Source of the DNA: Geobacillus thermoleovorans
GTDB taxonomy: Bacteria > Bacillota > Bacilli > Bacillales > Anoxybacillaceae
Reading direction: 5' to 3'
NCBI RefSeq assembly: GCF_001610955.1
Contig: NZ_CP014335.1
Location: 385,001 to 449,000, forward strand
Length of the DNA: 64,000 nt
This document shows positions 18,872 through 60,460 of the stretch, piece by piece. The first letter of the stretch is position 1. Every line of letters starts with the position of its first letter. The translations under genes were made by a program, and so were the position numbers. The notes under the pieces are model-generated. The model was not told the DNA's origin. It made no database searches and was given only the letters and a program-made list of their open reading frames with translations.

Positions 18872-19017
18872 CGGTTTCTCCTCCTCACAAAATCAAAGAA
18901 AATCCACGTAATTAGTCGGATATATAGCGGCCAAACGGCAATTCGGCGGCGAAAATCCTTCCTTGCATGAATCAGAAAGAGCGGGAGAAAGGGTGCCCCT
19001 TATTTTACTAAAGATCT

Positions 19018-19110
19018 TCTTTAGCTGGAATTGGCACTTTGCTATAGGCGGCAGGTTGACGGAGTTCATTGAGCCAATTCCTCCCTCACTCCCGAGCAAC
19101 GTATGCAACG
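19018..19110 (-). ncRNA. SAM-I riboswitch (S-box) upstream of cysH
   Basis: On the minus strand the conserved core is recognisable: CGGGAGTGAGGGAGGAATTG, then GGCTCAATGAACTCCGTCAA, then CCTGCC and, after a short arm, AGTGCCAATTCCAGC. This is the SAM-I pattern of kink-turn, GGCTC..ATGAA helix and GTGCCAATTCC strand. In Bacillus the cysH operon is an S-box unit, so control by S-adenosylmethionine is expected. After the aptamer CTAAAG/CTTTAG can pair, but I see no textbook U-tract terminator, so the expression platform is unclear. Confidence 0.8.
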
Positions 19111-40332: not shown

Positions 40333-40701
40333 ATGAACAAGTCAAAAGGTTGGATGGAATCGGAAATCAGCAAAGCGTTGACGAAATGGGAAAAAGATTT
40401 TCTCGGCCGCGGCTCGGTGTCGGTGAAAACCGATATTTTGCGTGATATGATTATCGTTTCCCTGCATGGCATCTTGACACCTGCTGAGTACGCTCTTTGT
40501 GAATCGAAGGAAGGGATGCTGGCGGTGAAACGGTCGCGGACGAGTTTGGTGGAATCGGGCGTCGATGATTTGAAGAAGATGATTTTGGAAATCACGGGTG
40601 AAAAAGTAAAAAGCTTTCATACCGATTTAAGCACCCGAACGGGTGAGCGGATTATTGTCTTTAAGCTGTTCAACGATTTGGAGAAACAGTTGACAAAATA
40701 A
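40333..40701 (+). CDS. mpsC: DUF2294 / MpsC family protein
   Basis: The 122-residue protein matches DUF2294 (SEISKALTKWEKDFLGRGS, then VKTDILRDMIIVSLHGILTP and ERIIVFKLFNDLEKQL). In staphylococci the same family is MpsC, encoded with MpsAB, the two-subunit bicarbonate/CO2 transporter; here the homologues of MpsAB lie 330 bases downstream. Its molecular role is not known. GGGGGATCAGGG precedes the ATG. A promoter for the dab leader lies just after its stop, so dab can be transcribed separately. Confidence 0.8.
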   Translation: MNKSKGWMESEISKALTKWEKDFLGRGSVSVKTDILRDMIIVSLHGILTPAEYALCESKEGMLAVKRSRTSLVESGVDDLKKMILEITGEKVKSFHTDLSTRTGERIIVFKLFNDLEKQLTK

Positions 40702-40709
40702 ATTTTTCC

Positions 40710-40738
40710 ATGACAAATCAACAAAGTTATTGTATAAT
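40710..40738 (+). promoter_or_regulatory. Promoter of the dab leader RNA
   Basis: ATGACA (40710-40715), a 17-base spacer and TATAAT (40733-40738). Transcription should start near 40746, giving a leader of nearly 290 bases before dabB. Confidence 0.72.
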
Positions 40739-40778
40739 TGAAACAACTTTTGTATAGTAAGTATAGAATAAAATAGTG

Positions 40779-40914
40779 GACGATGCTGTCGGGAGCCCTT
40801 CAAAAAACCTACGTGGGCTTAGGTTCGTTGAAGGGAAACCGACCGTCGCCTGCCGCGCGACAACGAACGGGAGATCTTCAAACAATCGAGCGATGATTGG
40901 TTGAAGGTAAACCG
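40779..40914 (+). ncRNA. Duplicated structured RNA motif in the dabB leader
   Basis: Two copies of one motif are visible. Copy 1: GTCGG-GAG-CCCTTCAA ... TTGAAGGG-AAA-CCGAC (40788-40843), closed further by GACG/CGTC and holding an inner AACCTA/TAGGTT hairpin. Copy 2: CGG-GAG-ATCTTCAA ... TTGAAGGT-AAA-CCG (40868-40914), with an inner CAATC/GATTG hairpin. Both have an 8-bp helix, a GAG/AAA internal loop and a CGG/CCG helix outside it. Apical parts differ, so the shared parts are likely the functional core. I cannot assign it to a known riboswitch class. Confidence 0.65.
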
Positions 40915-40990
40915 GCTATGGGCAATCGATAGGCAATGGAACGGCCTTTTTCGGCCGTTTTGCCTGATTGACATAGCCGGTTTTTTCTTT
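40911..40990 (+). terminator. Large intrinsic terminator in the dabB leader (attenuator)
   Basis: ACCGGCTATG (40911-40920) pairs with CATAGCCGGT (40972-40981). Inside are CAATC/GATTG, AGGCAA/TTGCCT and ACGGCC/GGCCGT helices, and TTTTTTCTTTTTT follows. The CCG at 40912-40914 also closes RNA motif copy 2, so motif and terminator are mutually exclusive there. Confidence 0.82.
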
Positions 40991-41034
40991 TTTCTCTCGA
41001 ACGATGTGCAAGCAGATGAGGGGAGGAGATGGCA

Positions 41035-42540
41035 ATGGGGAACGAATGGTTCGCATGGGGATGGCTGGCGGCGATTGCGGTCGTTTTCCTAAGTGCGATC
41101 GTGTGGCTGTTTCCGCGCGTGTCGGAACGATATGTGCATGTGCACGTTTGGCTGTTGCTGTTGCCGGGGACGGCGGCGCTATTCGGATGGATCGGCGCCG
41201 GCGGCGCGGTCGACATCGGCCCGTGGCGGTTTGATGCGACGAGCTGGCTGTCCGCCGTTTATATTTCGCTTCTCAGCTGGGCGATTCAACGGTTTGCGGT
41301 TCGCTATTTGCACGGCGACCGCCGCTATCGGCTGTATTTCTCGCTCTTGACATGGACGTCATTTGCCGCTTCGCTCACGTGGGCGGCCGGCGACTTGCGG
41401 TTGATCGCAGTGTGCTGGGGGCTGCCGCTTGTGGGGCTTGTGGCGTTGACCGCGTTGAAAAAAGAATGGGAGCCGGCTCAGTTCGTTGCCTGGCAGATGG
41501 GCATGCTGTTTTTGGCAAGTTGGATTGCTGTGGCCCTCACCGCTGTTTGGCTTGGGGCGAGAGTCGGTGAATGGACGCTCGTCTCGGCGTTGTCGGCGGA
41601 ACGTTTAGCTCGTCTCGCTCTATGGGAAAGGGCGGTGATGAGCGGATTGCTCATGTTGGCTGCCGTCATTCCAGCTGGGCAATGGCCGTTTCATCGCTGG
41701 CTAATGGAATCAGCCGTGACGCCGACGCCGGTGTCAGCGGTGATGCATGCCGGTCTTGTCAACGCTGGGGGGCTCTTGCTTTGGCGCTTTTCTCCGCTCT
41801 TTAACGAAACGTGGGCGCATGTGGCGCTGTTTCTGATCGCTTTTGCCTCGATTTTGATTGGCACGGGCGTTAGCTTTGTTCATGTTGACTATAAGCGCCA
41901 GCTCGTCGGTTCGACGATGGCGCAAATGGGCGTCATGCTTGTGCAATGCGCCCTGGGCGCTTACGGGGCCGCAGTAGTGCATTTAGTGTTGCACGGGTTG
42001 TTTAAAGCGACGCTCTTTTTGCAGTCCGGGTCCGTCGTGCCGCCAGTCGGTCGGGCAGGATTGCGAAAAACAGGCAGTTCGTGGCCGGGCGGCATCATCC
42101 TCGGCGTGCTGTTTGGGTGGGGCTTTTGGCAGGCGGCTCCGCACGAACCGGCCCGGTTGTTGAGCGCGCTTTTGCTTGCGGCCTCGGCAACGGTTGCCTG
42201 GGGACGGCTTACGGATTTTCGCGAAGGCCGTTGGCTGGGCTTTGCGGTTGTCGTTGCTTTGGCGTTGGCGTCCGAAACGGTGCGCCATCAATTTATGGCG
42301 CTGCTTCATAACGGGATGCCGTCCGCGTTTCTGCCGCCCGCTTCGTTCGAATGGCTTGTCTGCGCTCTGTTTGTTGCCGCGGCGCTGGTTGCTGTATGGA
42401 TCGCGAACCGGCGCAGTTCCATGCTTGCCATTCAGCTGTACATGTGGCTTGTTCACCTTGGTGAACCGCGTCCGGCGGCGACCGAAGCACACCCGCGTTA
42501 TTTGGCGTCCTATCTAAAGGAGGGGATGGCTCATGAGTAG
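41035..42540 (+). CDS. dabB: Inorganic-carbon transporter membrane subunit DabB (MpsA, NuoL-like)
   Basis: The 501-residue integral membrane protein has about fourteen helices and resembles the proton-conducting NuoL/NDH-5 subunit. The core contains PAGQWPFHRWLMESAVTPTP, then SAVMHAGLVNAGGLLL, and the segment VHLVLHGLFKATLFLQSGSV with the helix-breaking His/Lys. With DabA it forms the cation-driven CO2/bicarbonate accumulation complex. I chose the ATG at 41035, eight bases after GGAGG; the ATG at 41029 touches that site. It overlaps dabA by eight bases. Confidence 0.9.
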   Translation: MGNEWFAWGWLAAIAVVFLSAIVWLFPRVSERYVHVHVWLLLLPGTAALFGWIGAGGAVDIGPWRFDATSWLSAVYISLLSWAIQRFAVRYLHGDRRYRLYFSLLTWTSFAASLTWAAGDLRLIAVCWGLPLVGLVALTALKKEWEPAQFVAWQMGMLFLASWIAVALTAVWLGARVGEWTLVSALSAERLARLALWERAVMSGLLMLAAVIPAGQWPFHRWLMESAVTPTPVSAVMHAGLVNAGGLLLWRFSPLFNETWAHVALFLIAFASILIGTGVSFVHVDYKRQLVGSTMAQMGVMLVQCALGAYGAAVVHLVLHGLFKATLFLQSGSVVPPVGRAGLRKTGSSWPGGIILGVLFGWGFWQAAPHEPARLLSALLLAASATVAWGRLTDFREGRWLGFAVVVALALASETVRHQFMALLHNGMPSAFLPPASFEWLVCALFVAAALVAVWIANRRSSMLAIQLYMWLVHLGEPRPAATEAHPRYLASYLKEGMAHE

Positions 42541-45145
42541 AAGCGTCATATCACTTGAACGGTCAACGGAGGCAAAAAAAGCAGCCGCTTGTCCGCTCGA
42601 GGCGATCGTCAGCGAAGCGGCGAAGGTGATCGCTCCGCTTTGGCCGATTTCCGCGTTTATCGCCCGCCATCCGTGGATGGGGATGGAAAACAAGTCGTTT
42701 GTCGACGCGGCTGACCGACTGCAAGAAGCTTACGGCATCGACTTGTATCCGCCAATGGCCGTTTTTCATGCGGCGCTATCCAAAGGGGAGATTGACGTTT
42801 CCTTCATCGAGCGGCGTCTGCAACGATGGTTGGATGACGAGCCGCTTCCTGCGCCGCGCCATGAAGCGGAACGGCTATGCCGCGCCCTCCTTTGGAACGA
42901 TGCGGTGCCCGAAGAAGCGCTTCAGATGCCGAAACTGATCGAGTTGGCCGCCGCTATGCCGCTGCGCTCTGTTTCCATCCGCACGCGGTCTGTGCGCCTT
43001 GGTTTGGAAAAGCGGTTGGATCAACAAATGATCAAATGGTGCAAGCTGTTTTACGATCGGGGAGAGGCGGTGTGGGCGCTGCCGCATCGTGAACACGGCT
43101 TTTACGGGTCTTGGCGTCGTTTGGCGCCTCTTGATCCGTCCTTGTCCAAGGAGGAGCGGAAACGGCTTTTCGATTGGCCTCACCATCCAGAGGAGGCGCT
43201 GCAACGGGCGCTTGAGCAGCTCGGGGTGCAGGATGAGGAAGCCGTGGCCTATTTAGAAGCGCATTTATTAGCTCTGCCCGGCTGGGCGGGGATGATGGTC
43301 TGGCAATCGCGCCGTGCAGGTGACGAAATCGGCGGGCTGATCAACTACTTGGCCGTTCGTTTGTCGCTGGAGTGGGTGTTCACAGCGCCCCATCTGCCGC
43401 TGAAGGAGGAAGAAAACGAAGACGATCGTGCGGTTGGGCCGCTGTTGGCCGCCTGGATCCACTGGGGCGGCATGACGCTGGACGACTGGCGGCGCCTTCC
43501 GCTCGAAGACCGCCAAGCTCGTCTGGTGTTCGCCGATCGGTTCTGGCGAATTGGCCGCCGCCATCTTTGGCTTGAGGCGTGGGAAGATACGTATGAAGCG
43601 AAGCTGAAAGAAGCGGTTCTCACCCGTCAACCTGAGGAGCCAAAAGAGCAGGCGGCAGCGCAGCTATTGTTTTGCATTGATGTGCGCTCCGAGCCGTTCC
43701 GCCGTCATGTAGAGGCGGTCGGCCCGTTTGAAACGTACGGCTGCGCTGGCTTTTTCGGCTTGCCGATCCAAACGCGCGTGCTTGACAGCGATGACGCCCA
43801 TCCGTCTTGCCCGGCGATTGTGGCGCCGCGGCATGAAATCAACGAAACCGCTTCTCCCGAAACGGCGGCGCCGTACCGCCGGCGGCGCGATCTGTTCCGC
43901 TTTGTCGGCCGGACGTTTAAAAAAATCAAGCAGCATCTGCTGGCTGGTTTGCTGCTTCCGGAAATGAGCGGCCCGTGGCTTGGTTTGCATACGATCGCCC
44001 GCAGCGCAGCGCCGGCTTGGGCCGGGCAAGCCATTCATCAGGCGGAAATGTCGGCGCAACAAAAACCGAAGACGACGCTGTCGCTTGATTGCCAAGGGCA
44101 TGACGAAACGACTGGGCTGCCGATCGGGTTGACAAAAGAAGAGCAAGTGCAATACGTAAAACAGCTTCTCGTGAACATCGGCCTGACGTCCTCATTTGCC
44201 CCGCTTGTCGTCGTCTGCGGCCATGAGAGCGAGACGACAAATAACCCGTATGCGTCCGCGCTCGATTGCGGGGCGTGCGGCGGCGCGGCTGGGGCGTTCA
44301 ACGCCCGCGTATTCGCCGCGTTGGCCAACTTGCCGCACGTGCGGGATGGATTGGCGAAAGAGGGAATCGTCATCCCGGATGAGACAGTGTTCGTCGCCGC
44401 TGAACATATCACGACCGTTGACGAGTTGCGTTGGGTGGAAGTGCCGCCGTTGTCCGAAGCGGCTGAGGCGGCGTTTCGACAGCTGAAACAGGCGCTTGCC
44501 GGCGTCAGCCGCCAAGCCAATGCTGAGCGGATGGCGAAGCTGCCGCATGTCGGCGCCATGCCGCGCGATCCGGTTGCCGAAGCCCGACGCCGCGCCGTCG
44601 ACTGGAGTGAAATTCGTCCGGAGTGGGGATTGGCGGGGAACGCCGCTTTCCTGATTGGGCGGCGGGCGTTGACAAAGGGCGTTCATTTAGACGGCCGGGT
44701 GTTTTTGCACAGCTACGATTGGCGCGAAGATCCGACCGGTGAGGCGCTGGCCGGCATCATCGCTGGGCCGGCCACGGTTGGGCAGTGGATCAACTTGCAA
44801 TATTATGCTTCGACAGTGGCACCGAATTACTATGGAAGCGGCGACAAAACGACCCAGACGGTGACCGGCGGCATCGGCGTCATGCAAGGGAACGGAAGCG
44901 ACTTGCTAGCCGGCTTGCCGTGGCAGTCCGTCGCCGCATCTGACCGTGAGTGGTTCCACTCTCCGCTTCGGTTGCTCGTCATCATTGAAGCGCCGTTTTC
45001 CTATATCGAGCGGTTGCTCGATGAAAACAGCGAATTTCGGCGCAAAGTCCAAAACGGCTGGCTCCGTCTCGCCTCGATTGACCCAGACAGCGGGGCGTGG
45101 GTGAACTGGGAGGCAGGCCGTCTTGCGTCGGTACAGCAGCGCTAA
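42533..45145 (+). CDS. dabA: Inorganic-carbon transporter catalytic subunit DabA (MpsB, DUF2309)
   Basis: The 870-residue cytosolic subunit is a DUF2309 protein. It keeps the beta-carbonic-anhydrase-like zinc site: C381 and D383 in LLFCIDVRSEPFRRH, H564 in VVCGHESETTNNPYA and C579 in LDCGACGGAAGA. Coupled to DabB it is thought to hydrate CO2 vectorially and trap bicarbonate in the cell, supporting carboxylases at ambient CO2. AAGGAGGGG precedes the ATG, which overlaps the dabB stop. Length is usual for the family. Confidence 0.93.
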   Translation: MSRSVISLERSTEAKKAAACPLEAIVSEAAKVIAPLWPISAFIARHPWMGMENKSFVDAADRLQEAYGIDLYPPMAVFHAALSKGEIDVSFIERRLQRWLDDEPLPAPRHEAERLCRALLWNDAVPEEALQMPKLIELAAAMPLRSVSIRTRSVRLGLEKRLDQQMIKWCKLFYDRGEAVWALPHREHGFYGSWRRLAPLDPSLSKEERKRLFDWPHHPEEALQRALEQLGVQDEEAVAYLEAHLLALPGWAGMMVWQSRRAGDEIGGLINYLAVRLSLEWVFTAPHLPLKEEENEDDRAVGPLLAAWIHWGGMTLDDWRRLPLEDRQARLVFADRFWRIGRRHLWLEAWEDTYEAKLKEAVLTRQPEEPKEQAAAQLLFCIDVRSEPFRRHVEAVGPFETYGCAGFFGLPIQTRVLDSDDAHPSCPAIVAPRHEINETASPETAAPYRRRRDLFRFVGRTFKKIKQHLLAGLLLPEMSGPWLGLHTIARSAAPAWAGQAIHQAEMSAQQKPKTTLSLDCQGHDETTGLPIGLTKEEQVQYVKQLLVNIGLTSSFAPLVVVCGHESETTNNPYASALDCGACGGAAGAFNARVFAALANLPHVRDGLAKEGIVIPDETVFVAAEHITTVDELRWVEVPPLSEAAEAAFRQLKQALAGVSRQANAERMAKLPHVGAMPRDPVAEARRRAVDWSEIRPEWGLAGNAAFLIGRRALTKGVHLDGRVFLHSYDWREDPTGEALAGIIAGPATVGQWINLQYYASTVAPNYYGSGDKTTQTVTGGIGVMQGNGSDLLAGLPWQSVAASDREWFHSPLRLLVIIEAPFSYIERLLDENSEFRRKVQNGWLRLASIDPDSGAWVNWEAGRLASVQQR

Positions 45146-55838: not shown

Positions 55839-58794
55839 CGATCGTCACCCCCTTGTTTTCCTCGGTGAGCGGCACGTAGTCGCTTCGCCGCCACTTCCGC
55901 TCCACCTCGACGCCGTTTTGCGGATGCCGCTTTTTAAAGCGCGGATTTGTGCGCGGCAGCGGCGTCTTGCCGGACCGTTCAATGACTTCCATGCGCACTC
56001 GGGCTTGTTTGTAAGCCGGCGTGTTCGTGCGATGGTCGGTTTGCGGGCCGGTCAGCATGTTAATGGCGCTCTCATTGGCTGTGGAGTGCATCGGCAAGAA
56101 CAGTTCATTGCCTCTGACTCGATCGGTGACGAGCACGCGCACTTTGACGCGGCCGTACGGCGAGATGAGCCGAACGAGCGCCCCATCTTCAATGCCGCGT
56201 TCTTTGGCGAGTTCAGGGGATACTTCGACAAACACTTCTGGGAATTTATGCTCGATGCCTTTGGATTTGTACGTCAAGTTTCCTTCATGGAAATGTTCGA
56301 GCAATCGGCCGTTGTTCACAAGCAAATCGTACTCTTCCGGATATTGCACCGGTTCGACCCAATCGGCTAACGCAAAGCGGGCTTTGCCGTCCGGGAAGTT
56401 GAACCGCTCTTTGTACAACAGCGGCGTGTCAGCCCCGTCATGGCTGCCCCAGCATAAGCTGTTCCAGCCCTCGAGCCGGTCGTAATGCGCTTGTGAGTAC
56501 AGTGGGGCGAGGCTGGCGATTTCATCCATGATTTCTTTCGGGCCAGCGTAATTCCAATCGGCGCCAAGCCGCTTCGCGATTTCTTGAATGATCCACCAGT
56601 CTGGCTTGGAGTCGCCAAGAGGCTCCAGCGCTTGGTAAAACCGTTGGATGCGGCGCTCGGTATTCGTGAAAGTTCCTTCCTTTTCCAAACTTGGCGCTGC
56701 TGGCAAGATGACATCAGCAAATTGCGCTGTTTTTGACAAGAAAATGTCTTGAACGACAACAAAGTCAAGCTTCGCCAACGTCTCTTGCACATGGTTGGCG
56801 TTGCAGTCGACAAGCGCCATATCTTCGCCGATGATATACATCGCTTTCAGCTCGCCGCGCTCGGCCGCTTCGAGCATTTGGATGTTGTCAAGGCCTGGTT
56901 TCGCATCGATGCGGACGCCGTACGCTTTTTCAAACTTCGCTCGCGCCTCATCATCGGTGACATGTTGGTAGCCAGGCAGCCAGGCAGGAAGCGAACCCAT
57001 GTCGCAGGCGCCTTGGACGTTGTTATGGCCGCGCAATGGGAACGCGCCCGCCCCCGGACGACCGTAGTTGCCGGTTGCCAAAAGCAAGTTGGAAATCGCC
57101 GCCGATGTATCGCTGCCGCCCGTGTTTTGCGTGACCCCCATGCCCCAGAGGACGCACGTGCCGTCTGCTTCGTGGATCATCTCGGCGATGCGGATGAGAT
57201 CGGCTTTGGCGATGCCGGTCACTTGTTCAGCATAGTCGAGCGTATATTTTTCGAGCAGCTGTTTAAACTCGTCAAAGAAATGGACGCGCTCGCGAATGAA
57301 TGCTTCATCATGCCAGCCTTGGTCGATGATGTATTTTGTCACGGCCATCAGCCATACTTGGTCGGTGCCTTGTTTCGGGCGGATGAACAGGTCAGCCCGC
57401 TCGGCCATTTCATTTCGGCGCAAGTCCGCAACAATGAGTTTTTGGCCAAACAGTTTATGCGCCCGTTTGACGCGGGTAGCGAGCACCGGATGCCCCTCAG
57501 CTGGATTGGCACCGATGATGATGACAAGCCCCGCGGTGGCGATGTCGTGAATCGTGCCGGAGTCGCCGCCCATGCCGACCGTACGGAACAGGCCGTCTGT
57601 TGCCGGCGACTGGCAATAGCGCGAACAGTTGTCGACATTGTTCGTTTCAAATACTTGCCGTGCCAACTTTTGCATTAAATAGTTTTCTTCGTTGGAAATT
57701 TTTGATGATGAAATAAAGCCGATGGCGTTGCCGCCGTATTGCCGCTTGATCGCCCCGAGCTTTTCCGCGACCAAGTCGAGTGCTTCGTCCCATGTCGACT
57801 CGACGAATACGTCGCCTTTGCGAATGAGCGGTTTCGTTAGGCGCTCTTCGCTGTTGACGAAATCCCAGCCGAATTTTCCTTTGACGCATGTGGAAATGGC
57901 GTTGACCGGAGCTTCGGATACCGGCTGGATTTTTAAAATTTTCCGCCCTTTCGTCCACACTTCAAACGAACAGCCGACGCCGCAGAACGTGCAAACCGTT
58001 TTCGTCTTTTTGATCCGTTGTTCGCGCATGGCGGCCTCGATTTCAGAAATGGCGAAAATACTCGTATAGTTTGGCTCGACTTCCTTGACAAAATCGATCA
58101 TCGGGTTGAGGACGTCTTTGTCCAAGCCGGTGAGAAAGCCCGCTTCGCCAAGCATCGATTTTTCCATTAACGCGTTGCACGGACAGACGGTGACGCAATG
58201 CCCGCAGCTGACGCACGACGATTCGTTGATCGGCACCCCACCGTCCCAAACGACGCGCGGCCGTTCCGCTTCCCAATCGATCGAAAGCGTTTCGTTCACT
58301 TGCAAGTTTTGGCAGGCTTCGACGCATTGCCCGCAGGCGATGCATTGATTCGGGTCGTAGCGGTAGAACGGATGCGACATGTCCACCTCGGACGGGTCGA
58401 CTTTCGGCCGGTACGGATATGTTTGATGTTCAATTTGCATCATTTCCGCCGTGTTGTGCAGCTTGCAGTTGCCGTTGTTGTTGTCGCACACCGTACAGTA
58501 CAAGAGATGATTTTCCAACAGGCGGTCCATCGCTTCTTTTTGCGCTGCCTTTGCCCGCGGCGAGCCGAGTTCGACGACCATGCCGTCCTCAACCGGCGTC
58601 GCACAGGCGCGAAGCAGCGTTCCGTTGACTTCAGCGATGCACGTGTCGCATGTCTGAATGGCGCCAAGCTCCGGCGTATAACAAACTTGCGGATGCGGAA
58701 GACCGTGTTCATTGACGACTTCCAAAATCGTCATCCCGGGCTTGGCGCGGTAGGCACGCCCGTTGATGGTTACCGTCACCATTTGCGCTTCCAT
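55831..58794 (-). CDS. fdhA: Molybdopterin formate dehydrogenase alpha subunit
   Basis: The 987-residue protein oxidises formate to CO2. Domains in order: 2Fe-2S (C38, C49, C52, C64), NuoG-type His/Cys 4Fe-4S (H96, C100, C103, C110), two ferredoxin 4Fe-4S (C151-C161 and C194-C204), Mo-domain 4Fe-4S (C268, C271, C275), then the molybdopterin domain. The Mo ligand is Cys394 in SRYCQSPATDG, not selenocysteine. The C-terminal dinucleotide-binding domain includes GPQTDHRTNTPAYK. There is no Tat signal, so it is cytosolic. AAAGGGGGAG precedes the ATG. A terminator hairpin sits in the leader. Confidence 0.92.
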   Translation of the reverse strand: MEAQMVTVTINGRAYRAKPGMTILEVVNEHGLPHPQVCYTPELGAIQTCDTCIAEVNGTLLRACATPVEDGMVVELGSPRAKAAQKEAMDRLLENHLLYCTVCDNNNGNCKLHNTAEMMQIEHQTYPYRPKVDPSEVDMSHPFYRYDPNQCIACGQCVEACQNLQVNETLSIDWEAERPRVVWDGGVPINESSCVSCGHCVTVCPCNALMEKSMLGEAGFLTGLDKDVLNPMIDFVKEVEPNYTSIFAISEIEAAMREQRIKKTKTVCTFCGVGCSFEVWTKGRKILKIQPVSEAPVNAISTCVKGKFGWDFVNSEERLTKPLIRKGDVFVESTWDEALDLVAEKLGAIKRQYGGNAIGFISSSKISNEENYLMQKLARQVFETNNVDNCSRYCQSPATDGLFRTVGMGGDSGTIHDIATAGLVIIIGANPAEGHPVLATRVKRAHKLFGQKLIVADLRRNEMAERADLFIRPKQGTDQVWLMAVTKYIIDQGWHDEAFIRERVHFFDEFKQLLEKYTLDYAEQVTGIAKADLIRIAEMIHEADGTCVLWGMGVTQNTGGSDTSAAISNLLLATGNYGRPGAGAFPLRGHNNVQGACDMGSLPAWLPGYQHVTDDEARAKFEKAYGVRIDAKPGLDNIQMLEAAERGELKAMYIIGEDMALVDCNANHVQETLAKLDFVVVQDIFLSKTAQFADVILPAAPSLEKEGTFTNTERRIQRFYQALEPLGDSKPDWWIIQEIAKRLGADWNYAGPKEIMDEIASLAPLYSQAHYDRLEGWNSLCWGSHDGADTPLLYKERFNFPDGKARFALADWVEPVQYPEEYDLLVNNGRLLEHFHEGNLTYKSKGIEHKFPEVFVEVSPELAKERGIEDGALVRLISPYGRVKVRVLVTDRVRGNELFLPMHSTANESAINMLTGPQTDHRTNTPAYKQARVRMEVIERSGKTPLPRTNPRFKKRHPQNGVEVERKWRRSDYVPLTEENKGVTIGG

Positions 58795-58955: not shown

Positions 58956-59060
58956 CCACTATGTATACATTTGCTATAGTTTATTATAGTACGGCAAAAC
59001 GAAGAACACAACGGATGGGCTGGAACTTTTTCTGGTGGCTTTCGGAAAGGGGGAAGAAAA

Positions 59061-59408
59061 ATGTCCAAAAAAGAAGCCGCTTTCAACGATATTGTGCGCA
59101 AAGTGCGCAAACAGCTGTTTGGCAAAGGGCCGGAACGGATTAAAACGTATTTCGTCGACAATTTGGCAATTACGATTTTGCACGGCAATTTAACGCCGAC
59201 GGAAAAATTTATCGCCCGCACCCCGGAAGGCCGAGAGATGGTGCATGCAGCGAGAACGAAAATGATCCAAGATGTGTACGCCCAACATGTGCCGGACGGC
59301 ATGGAAGAGCTCATCGGTTCGAAGCTTCTTTATTTGTTCAGCGACATTAAAGTGGAAGAAGATATGGCCGTATCGGTGTTCGTGTTTGAAAAACCGATTG
59401 AATTGTGA
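59061..59408 (+). CDS. DUF2294 / MpsC family protein, second copy
   Basis: The 115-residue protein is another DUF2294 member (EAAFNDIVRKVRKQLFGKGP, then LAITILHGNLTPTEKFIART). It shares the pattern of the copy beside dabBA but is clearly divergent. It lies divergent from fdhA and upstream of fdhD, so a link to formate or CO2 metabolism is inferred from position only. AAAGGGGGAAG precedes the ATG. Function is unknown. Confidence 0.8.
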   Translation: MSKKEAAFNDIVRKVRKQLFGKGPERIKTYFVDNLAITILHGNLTPTEKFIARTPEGREMVHAARTKMIQDVYAQHVPDGMEELIGSKLLYLFSDIKVEEDMAVSVFVFEKPIEL

Positions 59409-59646: not shown

Positions 59647-59668
59647 CATGGAAAGGGGGAATGGCAAG

Positions 59669-60460
59669 GTGAGCGGGTTTGCGGCGAAACGGCGACCGAT
59701 TGCGAAATACCGGAACGGGCGCTTTGTTGAGGAAGAGGACGAGATCGCGCTCGAGTTTCCGTTGACCATAACGGTCAATGGCGAGGAGTTTGCGACGATC
59801 GTTTGCACGCCGGCGCATCTAGATGAATTGGTAATCGGATTTTTGGCTTCGGAAGGAGCCATTCGGACGTGCAGCGACATCAAAGGGATGACCATTGATG
59901 GTGAGCGGGGCTTTGCTTATGTCGAACTCGCCGCAGGCGGACTGCCGGCCAAACAGTTTTATGCCAAGCGGTTCATCGGCTCGTGCTGCGGAAAAAGCCG
60001 GCAATTTTATTTTTACAATGACATGAAGACGGCGAAAACGATCGTCGGCGGCATCACGGTGAAGGCGGATGACTGCATTCGCCTCATGAAAGCGCTGCAC
60101 GAGCGGTCGACGGACTTTGCGGCGACGGGCGGTCTTCACAACGCCGCGCTCGCCACACCGGATGAGATGGTCGTGATTCGTTCTGACATCGGGCGTCACA
60201 ACGCGCTCGATAAGCTGTATGGCTATTGCCTGCGTCATCAAGTTGCGATGAAAGACAAGCTCATTGTATTCAGCGGCCGCGTTTCATCGGAAGTGCTGTT
60301 AAAGGCGGCGAAAATGGGAGTGAGCGTCCTGCTCTCAAAATCGGCGCCGACGACGCTGGCCTTGGATTTGGCGGATGAACTCGGCATAACCGTCGTTGGC
60401 TTTTTGCGCGGGCAGGCGTTTAACGTGTATACGCATGAGAGTCGGATCATCATCGGGTAA
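59669..60460 (+). CDS. fdhD: Formate dehydrogenase sulfurtransferase FdhD
   Basis: The 263-residue protein transfers sulfur to the molybdenum cofactor so that formate dehydrogenase becomes active. It has the family core EFATIVCTPAHLDELVIGFL, the sulfur-carrying cysteine region FIGSCCGKS and the conserved VIRSDIGRHNALDKLYGYCL. The start is a GTG behind AAAGGGGGAATGG. It is followed 16 bases later by the OFA transporter gene, forming a formate unit with fdhA on the other strand. Confidence 0.92.
   Translation: MSGFAAKRRPIAKYRNGRFVEEEDEIALEFPLTITVNGEEFATIVCTPAHLDELVIGFLASEGAIRTCSDIKGMTIDGERGFAYVELAAGGLPAKQFYAKRFIGSCCGKSRQFYFYNDMKTAKTIVGGITVKADDCIRLMKALHERSTDFAATGGLHNAALATPDEMVVIRSDIGRHNALDKLYGYCLRHQVAMKDKLIVFSGRVSSEVLLKAAKMGVSVLLSKSAPTTLALDLADELGITVVGFLRGQAFNVYTHESRIIIG

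Follow-up and report, generated by a model that had tools for sequence, protein, structure and literature searches.

The window analysed here is a stretch of 64,000 nucleotides (64 kb) from Geobacillus thermoleovorans, and coordinates below are positions in it. A leader lies in this window between the small gene mpsC and the inorganic-carbon transporter genes dabBA, with the following features:

40333..40701, plus strand: mpsC, encoding a small PF10057 protein (also DUF2294/YbcI; Pfam E value 2.4e-39), the candidate RNA-binding partner
40710..40738, plus strand: sigma-70-like promoter ATGACA-17-TATAAT (consensus scan, 11/12 matches), the probable leader start
40788..40843, plus strand: motif copy 1, the upstream tandem unit, without terminator overlap (74.4 bits with covariance model R1)
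40866..40916, plus strand: motif copy 2, the predicted antiterminator, whose 3' strand AAACCG is common to the terminator (R1, 65.1 bits)
40909..40992, plus strand: intrinsic terminator predicted by folding, with a stem at about 40909-40983, a U-run from 40981, and a U-rich tail
41029..42540, plus strand: dabB (mpsA/ndhF-like membrane subunit), the first gene past the terminator (Proton_antipo_M, E value 1.1e-40)
42533..45145, plus strand: dabA (mpsB), inorganic-carbon transporter subunit (PF10070 DabA, E value 5.5e-267)

The original prediction described two motif copies in this leader, each with its own hairpin. Indeed, the pattern CGGGAGNNCTTCAA-N(10-40)-TTGAAGGNAAACCG has exactly two matches in the window, one per copy (40790-40841 and 40868-40914), and is absent from 100/100 shuffled sequences. 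The copies are separated by 26 bases, close to the predicted spacing of about 25. Folded in isolation, both are more stable than their shuffles (z = -4.55 and -4.90, with 0/200 shuffles equally stable), and the corresponding values for the terminator and the entire leader are -5.60 and -7.29. The CCG that closes copy 2 (40912-40914) belongs to the terminator stem as anticipated. The terminator does not stand directly before dabB as had been claimed; its stem ends about 45 bases before the ATG at 41029. The promoter call reflects agreement with the consensus, which by itself is no evidence of function. A dyad, AAAGTT-N-TTGTATAATTGAAACAACTTT, lies across the -10 box of this promoter (40723-40750) and might serve as an operator or fold into an early hairpin; similar dyads are also visible in related leaders.

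Each unit of the motif comprises a short lower helix of GG/CC that is extended in some cases, followed by a 3x3 internal loop (N-A-G/A-A-A), an 8-bp helix, a 2x2 loop (A-N/N-G), and a variable upper hairpin. Covariance model R1 was built from 23 copies in relatives of the window (loci L001 to L019) with near-duplicates excluded, and R2 from 90 matches; two weak A3 rows (the window minus strand and L068 1386-1432) were removed from A4 by a stricter cut-off. In a sequence-only alignment of 23 rows, double changes occur in 7/15 pairs, and 0/500 shuffles are as good. With 89 distinct rows, double changes rise to 13/15 pairs in an alignment that was fitted to the model and is biased towards structure. 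Loop columns A8, G9, A22, G67, A76, and A77 are near-invariant (88 to 89 of the 89 rows), giving a candidate binding core from which related leaders depart with variant loops. Both the compensatory changes and the loop conservation that a covariance-model check had been expected to reveal are therefore found and, judged by its sequence, the hairpin is a real RNA family with compensatory changes.

The element had been described as matching no known RNA family, and our scans agree. None of 4227 Rfam families reaches its gathering threshold in the leader, and the best hit of a permissive scan of the leader (E ≤ 10) scores 16 bits against the 51 needed, which is chance level; thus no family unrelated to carbon uptake was matched either. 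The T-box covariance model likewise has no match in the Rfam scans of the leader or the window. Across the whole window, the sole Rfam match is a SAM (S-box) riboswitch at 18997-19101 on the minus strand, just over the gathering threshold.

Motif folding and termination were proposed to compete, and in silico they do so in the window and in nearly all related leaders. Forming the copy 2 lower helix in the window costs 9.3 kcal/mol (-93.3 versus -102.6), and forcing it results in loss of the U-proximal terminator pairs. When identical leaders are taken once, the terminator 5' arm has at least three bases in common with the motif 3' strand in 120/126 distinct leaders (by a script rule). In 119/126, the terminator persists when motif and terminator are folded together to minimum energy. 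The script detected no overlapping terminator in four leaders; L043, L044, and L053 are each the first copy of a tandem, and L106 has a terminator by eye that the script's U-run rule missed. Among the 120, L079 (where sbtA starts 26 bases past the motif) and L174 show no convincing terminator by eye. Since nearly all leaders fold more stably as the terminator, the folding models place the default state at OFF, with a clamp needed for ON. We are highly confident that the element is a cis-acting antitermination switch, whatever the clamp may be.

In the window's own genome, R1 finds two plus-strand matches, both at the dabBA leader, and a weak third on the minus strand of copy 1. The motif occurs in 23/41 genomes of the family, all 23 with two or more matches. 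R1 finds it in at least 78/397 genomes of the order at E ≤ 0.01 and in at least 68 at E ≤ 1e-4, and R2 in at least 41/398 genomes of the class (E ≤ 0.001), including 28 that do not belong to the order. At least 4/299 genomes of the phylum carry it, one being the window's own and one already known from the class search. These order, class, and phylum counts are lower bounds, since 14 to 19 candidates were scored per genome; four genomes missed by R1 in the order search (G015, G023, G046, and G152) were found by R2 in the class search. The tandem arrangement, which the original prediction read as the hallmark of a riboswitch, is typical of the window's family, but most loci elsewhere are single copy, so it does not mark the element as a whole. 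Outside the class, genome G834 carries together the tandem motif, dabB, and an mpsC with 81% identity to that of the window, as if the module travels whole, and G952 has a motif-like remnant after mpsC with no terminator or transporter beside it.

Genes downstream of the element were recounted by script, with Pfam run on representatives. Among 69 loci from the order and the family, 32 have dabB and 29 an SbtA-type gene as their next gene (61/69 together; two of the 29 are of a second SbtA type), 4 have isocitrate dehydrogenase, and 3 have DUF6671; the remaining locus is L067. L094 has Sbt_1 by Pfam followed by a PII-like gene. The class search gives dabB or sbtA as the next gene in 20/21 loci. 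A pattern scan of named genomes yielded 114 stretches, and the 80 listed were searched with R2, which matched 63 and left 17 without a match. In the 60 listed named loci with a best match of at least 43 bits, the next gene is dabB in 28 and sbtA in 27 (one behind another small gene), or 55/60; the remainder are DUF6671 (2), isocitrate dehydrogenase (1), a contig end (1), and L201 (1). The order and named sets share species and are not independent. The predicted link to dabBA homologues is thus borne out and extends to SbtA, a transporter family unrelated to dabB. Three weak matches outside Bacilli (L190, L202, and L237) were rejected as chance; they lack carbon genes, and no terminator convincingly overlaps them.

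Several neighbors of the element may be useful to record. An intact motif and terminator with no gene close by (L201:817-863) and another between genes that look transposase-like by eye (L067:1501-1551) are possible orphan sites. DUF6407, a protein of about 100 amino acids, is encoded in both a motif-sbtA operon and a motif-DUF6671-isocitrate dehydrogenase operon (L089:1797-2102 and L098:1053-1346, both minus strand). A protein of about 160 amino acids without a Pfam match follows sbtA in several motif operons (L076:1503-1991, minus strand, and L062, L066, and L098); by eye only, its core faintly resembles beta-carbonic anhydrase.

The element appears to be an antitermination switch, off by default, that belongs to an inorganic-carbon regulon, and the hairpin probably switches uptake genes on when inorganic carbon is short. 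In the mechanism we infer, the promoter just 3' of mpsC would produce a leader RNA that by default forms a strong intrinsic terminator ahead of dabBA (OFF). The terminator-proximal hairpin could instead hold its own 3' strand, AAACCG, in the lower helix and the 3x3 purine loop. Clamping of the lower helix would leave the terminator without its U-proximal pairs, and dabBA would be transcribed (ON). Across Bacilli, the element would likewise act on sbtA and on a small number of genes linked to CO2 (isocitrate dehydrogenase and DUF6671). The clamp would most likely be MpsC, binding the internal loops under inorganic-carbon shortage. MpsC as the clamp is our leading guess and is favored over a small-molecule riboswitch; an antitermination switch with this protein as its partner is a plausible reading that we hold tentatively.

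Co-occurrence is the main evidence that points to MpsC. PF10057 is present in 23/23 motif genomes of the family, in 68/68 genomes of the order with a motif at E ≤ 1e-4, in 9/10 order genomes with weaker motifs, and in 27/27 class motif genomes tested outside the order. The 28th of these, G780, has the weakest class match (E 7.3e-4, partial), with no query genes in the 7 kb surrounding it. The order genome G317 (motif E 0.007) has no PF10057 gene, and its match is probably due to chance. Further, mpsC is immediately upstream of the motif in 31/69 order and family loci and in 41/63 listed named loci, and elsewhere it follows dabA. In three genomes of the window's family (G019, G020, and G027), a close MpsC is encoded at least 9 kb from the motif. 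The predicted fold of MpsC (pLDDT 94.4) has no clear match in the PDB, where only weak ribosomal-protein-like and TRAPP-like rows were returned.

We also examined 40 MpsC loci from genomes that were initially motif negative, comprising 23 close MpsC loci (at least 53% identity to the window's) and 17 paralogues (at most 43%). The motif is found at none of the 17 paralogue loci (R1 only). Of the 23 close loci, 12 have an R1 or R2 match at the transporter (3 of these in extra upstream stretches), 4 retain the 3x3/8-bp/2x2 layout but differ in their loop letters, and 3 have a related terminator-armed spacer by eye, for a total of 19/23 with variants included. The motif is absent from L118, which is mpsC-sbtA, and from L121, L122, and L123, where mpsC has no motif or transporter nearby (L122 by R1 only). 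Among order genomes without a close MpsC, none of 40 encodes DabA or SbtA; these were chosen because their PF10057 matches were weak, in the paralogue range, or lacking altogether. MpsC thus tracks the transporters, and its presence alongside the motif would be expected both of an RNA partner and of a protein that serves carbon uptake in general.

The window itself encodes a second PF10057 paralogue (59058-59393, plus strand), 23% identical to the first MpsC. It is flanked by a molybdopterin oxidoreductase gene (56002-58794, minus strand) that resembles formate dehydrogenase by eye and by fdhD (59648-60460) and an MFS transporter gene. The mpsC genes of L121, L123, L152, and L310 adjoin similar-looking MFS genes, and these neighbors hint at a link of the PF10057 family to formate/CO2.

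A riboswitch, as put forward in the original prediction, would use the 3x3 and 2x2 loops to recognize an ion or small molecule indicating inorganic-carbon shortage, and this binding would clamp the lower helix with no protein. We consider this possible but less probable than an MpsC clamp. The prediction stands in that a conserved, covarying element excludes a terminator ahead of inorganic-carbon genes, and near-invariant loop residues with an 8-bp helix between them, a widespread single unit of about 50 nucleotides, and tandem units sharing one terminator in the window's family would all be in keeping with it. It fits less well in that a clamped, ligand-bound ON state does not agree with bicarbonate repressing its own uptake, so that a separate starvation signal would be required. 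Loop letters, including those of the 3x3 loop, also differ in several lineages that share the same architecture, which is unusual for a ligand pocket. The variants UUG/AAG, UUG/AGG, UCG/AAA, AUG/AAA, and GAG/AGA occur with MpsC proteins of 56 to 64% identity, a pattern that would suit protein-RNA co-evolution. Canonical loops also occur with MpsC of 58 to 61% identity (L063, L168, and L169), which weakens the co-evolution argument, and ancestry may explain the variants. A protein-bound antiterminator, named in the original prediction as the alternative, is at least as likely as a riboswitch given that mpsC is found in all strong-match genomes tested.

Published work on Staphylococcus aureus bears on the choice between MpsC and a riboswitch in both directions. 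MpsC is dispensable for transport itself and was judged to be no functional part of the system (PMC6689103), pointing to another role for this protein. Growth in air requires mpsAB, but a strain without mpsC grows as the wild type does (PMC6689103); this silent deletion speaks against an essential MpsC and would be compatible with a riboswitch. The S. aureus operon has the same genes, mpsA, mpsB, and mpsC, and the words riboswitch and leader are absent from the available text (PMC6689103). In our class set, DabA is present in 38/250 genomes, 21 of which have an R2 match, and the terminator arm of the dabB leader starts with AACC or AGCC in 14 of the other 17. Leaders of the f56/g147 genomes, which are perhaps Staphylococcaceae-like judging by size and gene order, have an arm of this type in 4/6 cases and a degenerate hairpin in 3/6. 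In L313, L315, and L317 from this group, a degenerate motif (GGTAGC...GAAGCC) missed by R2 accompanies the same overlapping terminator. If the S. aureus leader is alike, MpsC would not be strictly required.

Clamping by another trans factor, either a different RNA-binding protein or a small RNA, with MpsC part of the carbon-uptake module for some other purpose such as tuning transporter activity, is unlikely. Co-inheritance of MpsC with the transporters and the presence of MpsC paralogues beside formate dehydrogenase-like and MFS genes with no R1 match would be expected from such an arrangement, but no regulator-like gene other than mpsC recurs at the loci by eye. It is very improbable that the leader is an unregulated, fixed attenuator whose hairpin is decorative, as the loop residues and the overlap register are conserved between genera and ahead of transporters from two unrelated families.

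Antitermination by an MpsC-clamped hairpin would have parallels in known systems. RAT hairpins of the BglG/LicT type overlap the base of a terminator, the bound protein stabilizes the antiterminator, and the regulator gene is often beside the operon. The element described here similarly lies over the base of an intrinsic terminator, and its candidate regulator gene is often beside the target operon. It differs in being longer, with 3x3 and 2x2 loops 8 bp apart, and in its association with carbon uptake rather than sugar PTS. Membership in the RAT group was rejected because the adjacent gene, mpsC, encodes only PF10057, with no CAT/PRD domain. ANTAR leaders contain two hairpins with conserved hexaloops before an overlapping terminator. 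The paired hairpins ahead of an overlapping terminator are a shared feature, but an ANTAR leader was rejected because the apical loop columns here are variable and mostly gapped, with conservation in the internal loops. Terminating riboswitches, including tandem ones, also have a conserved 5' leader element, a mutually exclusive terminator, and a coherent regulon, whereas here there is no Rfam match, the internal loops have variants, and one protein family is always present.

Reported expression data for these genes vary. In one study, S. aureus mpsA mRNA is 1.7- to 2.5-fold lower in 5% CO2, significantly so in 1/3 strains (PMC6689103). With NaHCO3 plus oxacillin, a second study reports an increase in mpsA of about 2-fold in 2/4 strains in mid-exponential phase; the remaining two strains showed a 2-fold decrease in early stationary phase (PMC10269494). 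The NaHCO3 plus oxacillin results do not match the CO2 effect, and the reported regulation is mixed. In Bacillus subtilis, ndhF-ybcC is reported to be up 7-fold without c-di-AMP (PMC7857571).

In the open-access literature searched, no such element is described upstream of dab/mps or sbt genes, and we found no account of inorganic-carbon sensing or control of DabAB/MpsAB and SbtA in heterotrophic Firmicutes. We think it fairly probable that the element is the output of a carbon circuit undescribed in the literature searched, built either on PF10057 proteins as CO2/bicarbonate-responsive RNA-binding antiterminators or on a new riboswitch class. The element would provide a single testable control point common to two unrelated transporter families and outlines a candidate regulon whose further members are isocitrate dehydrogenase and genes of unknown function (DUF6671 and DUF6407). 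It further offers a possible function for MpsC/DUF2294, a widespread protein.
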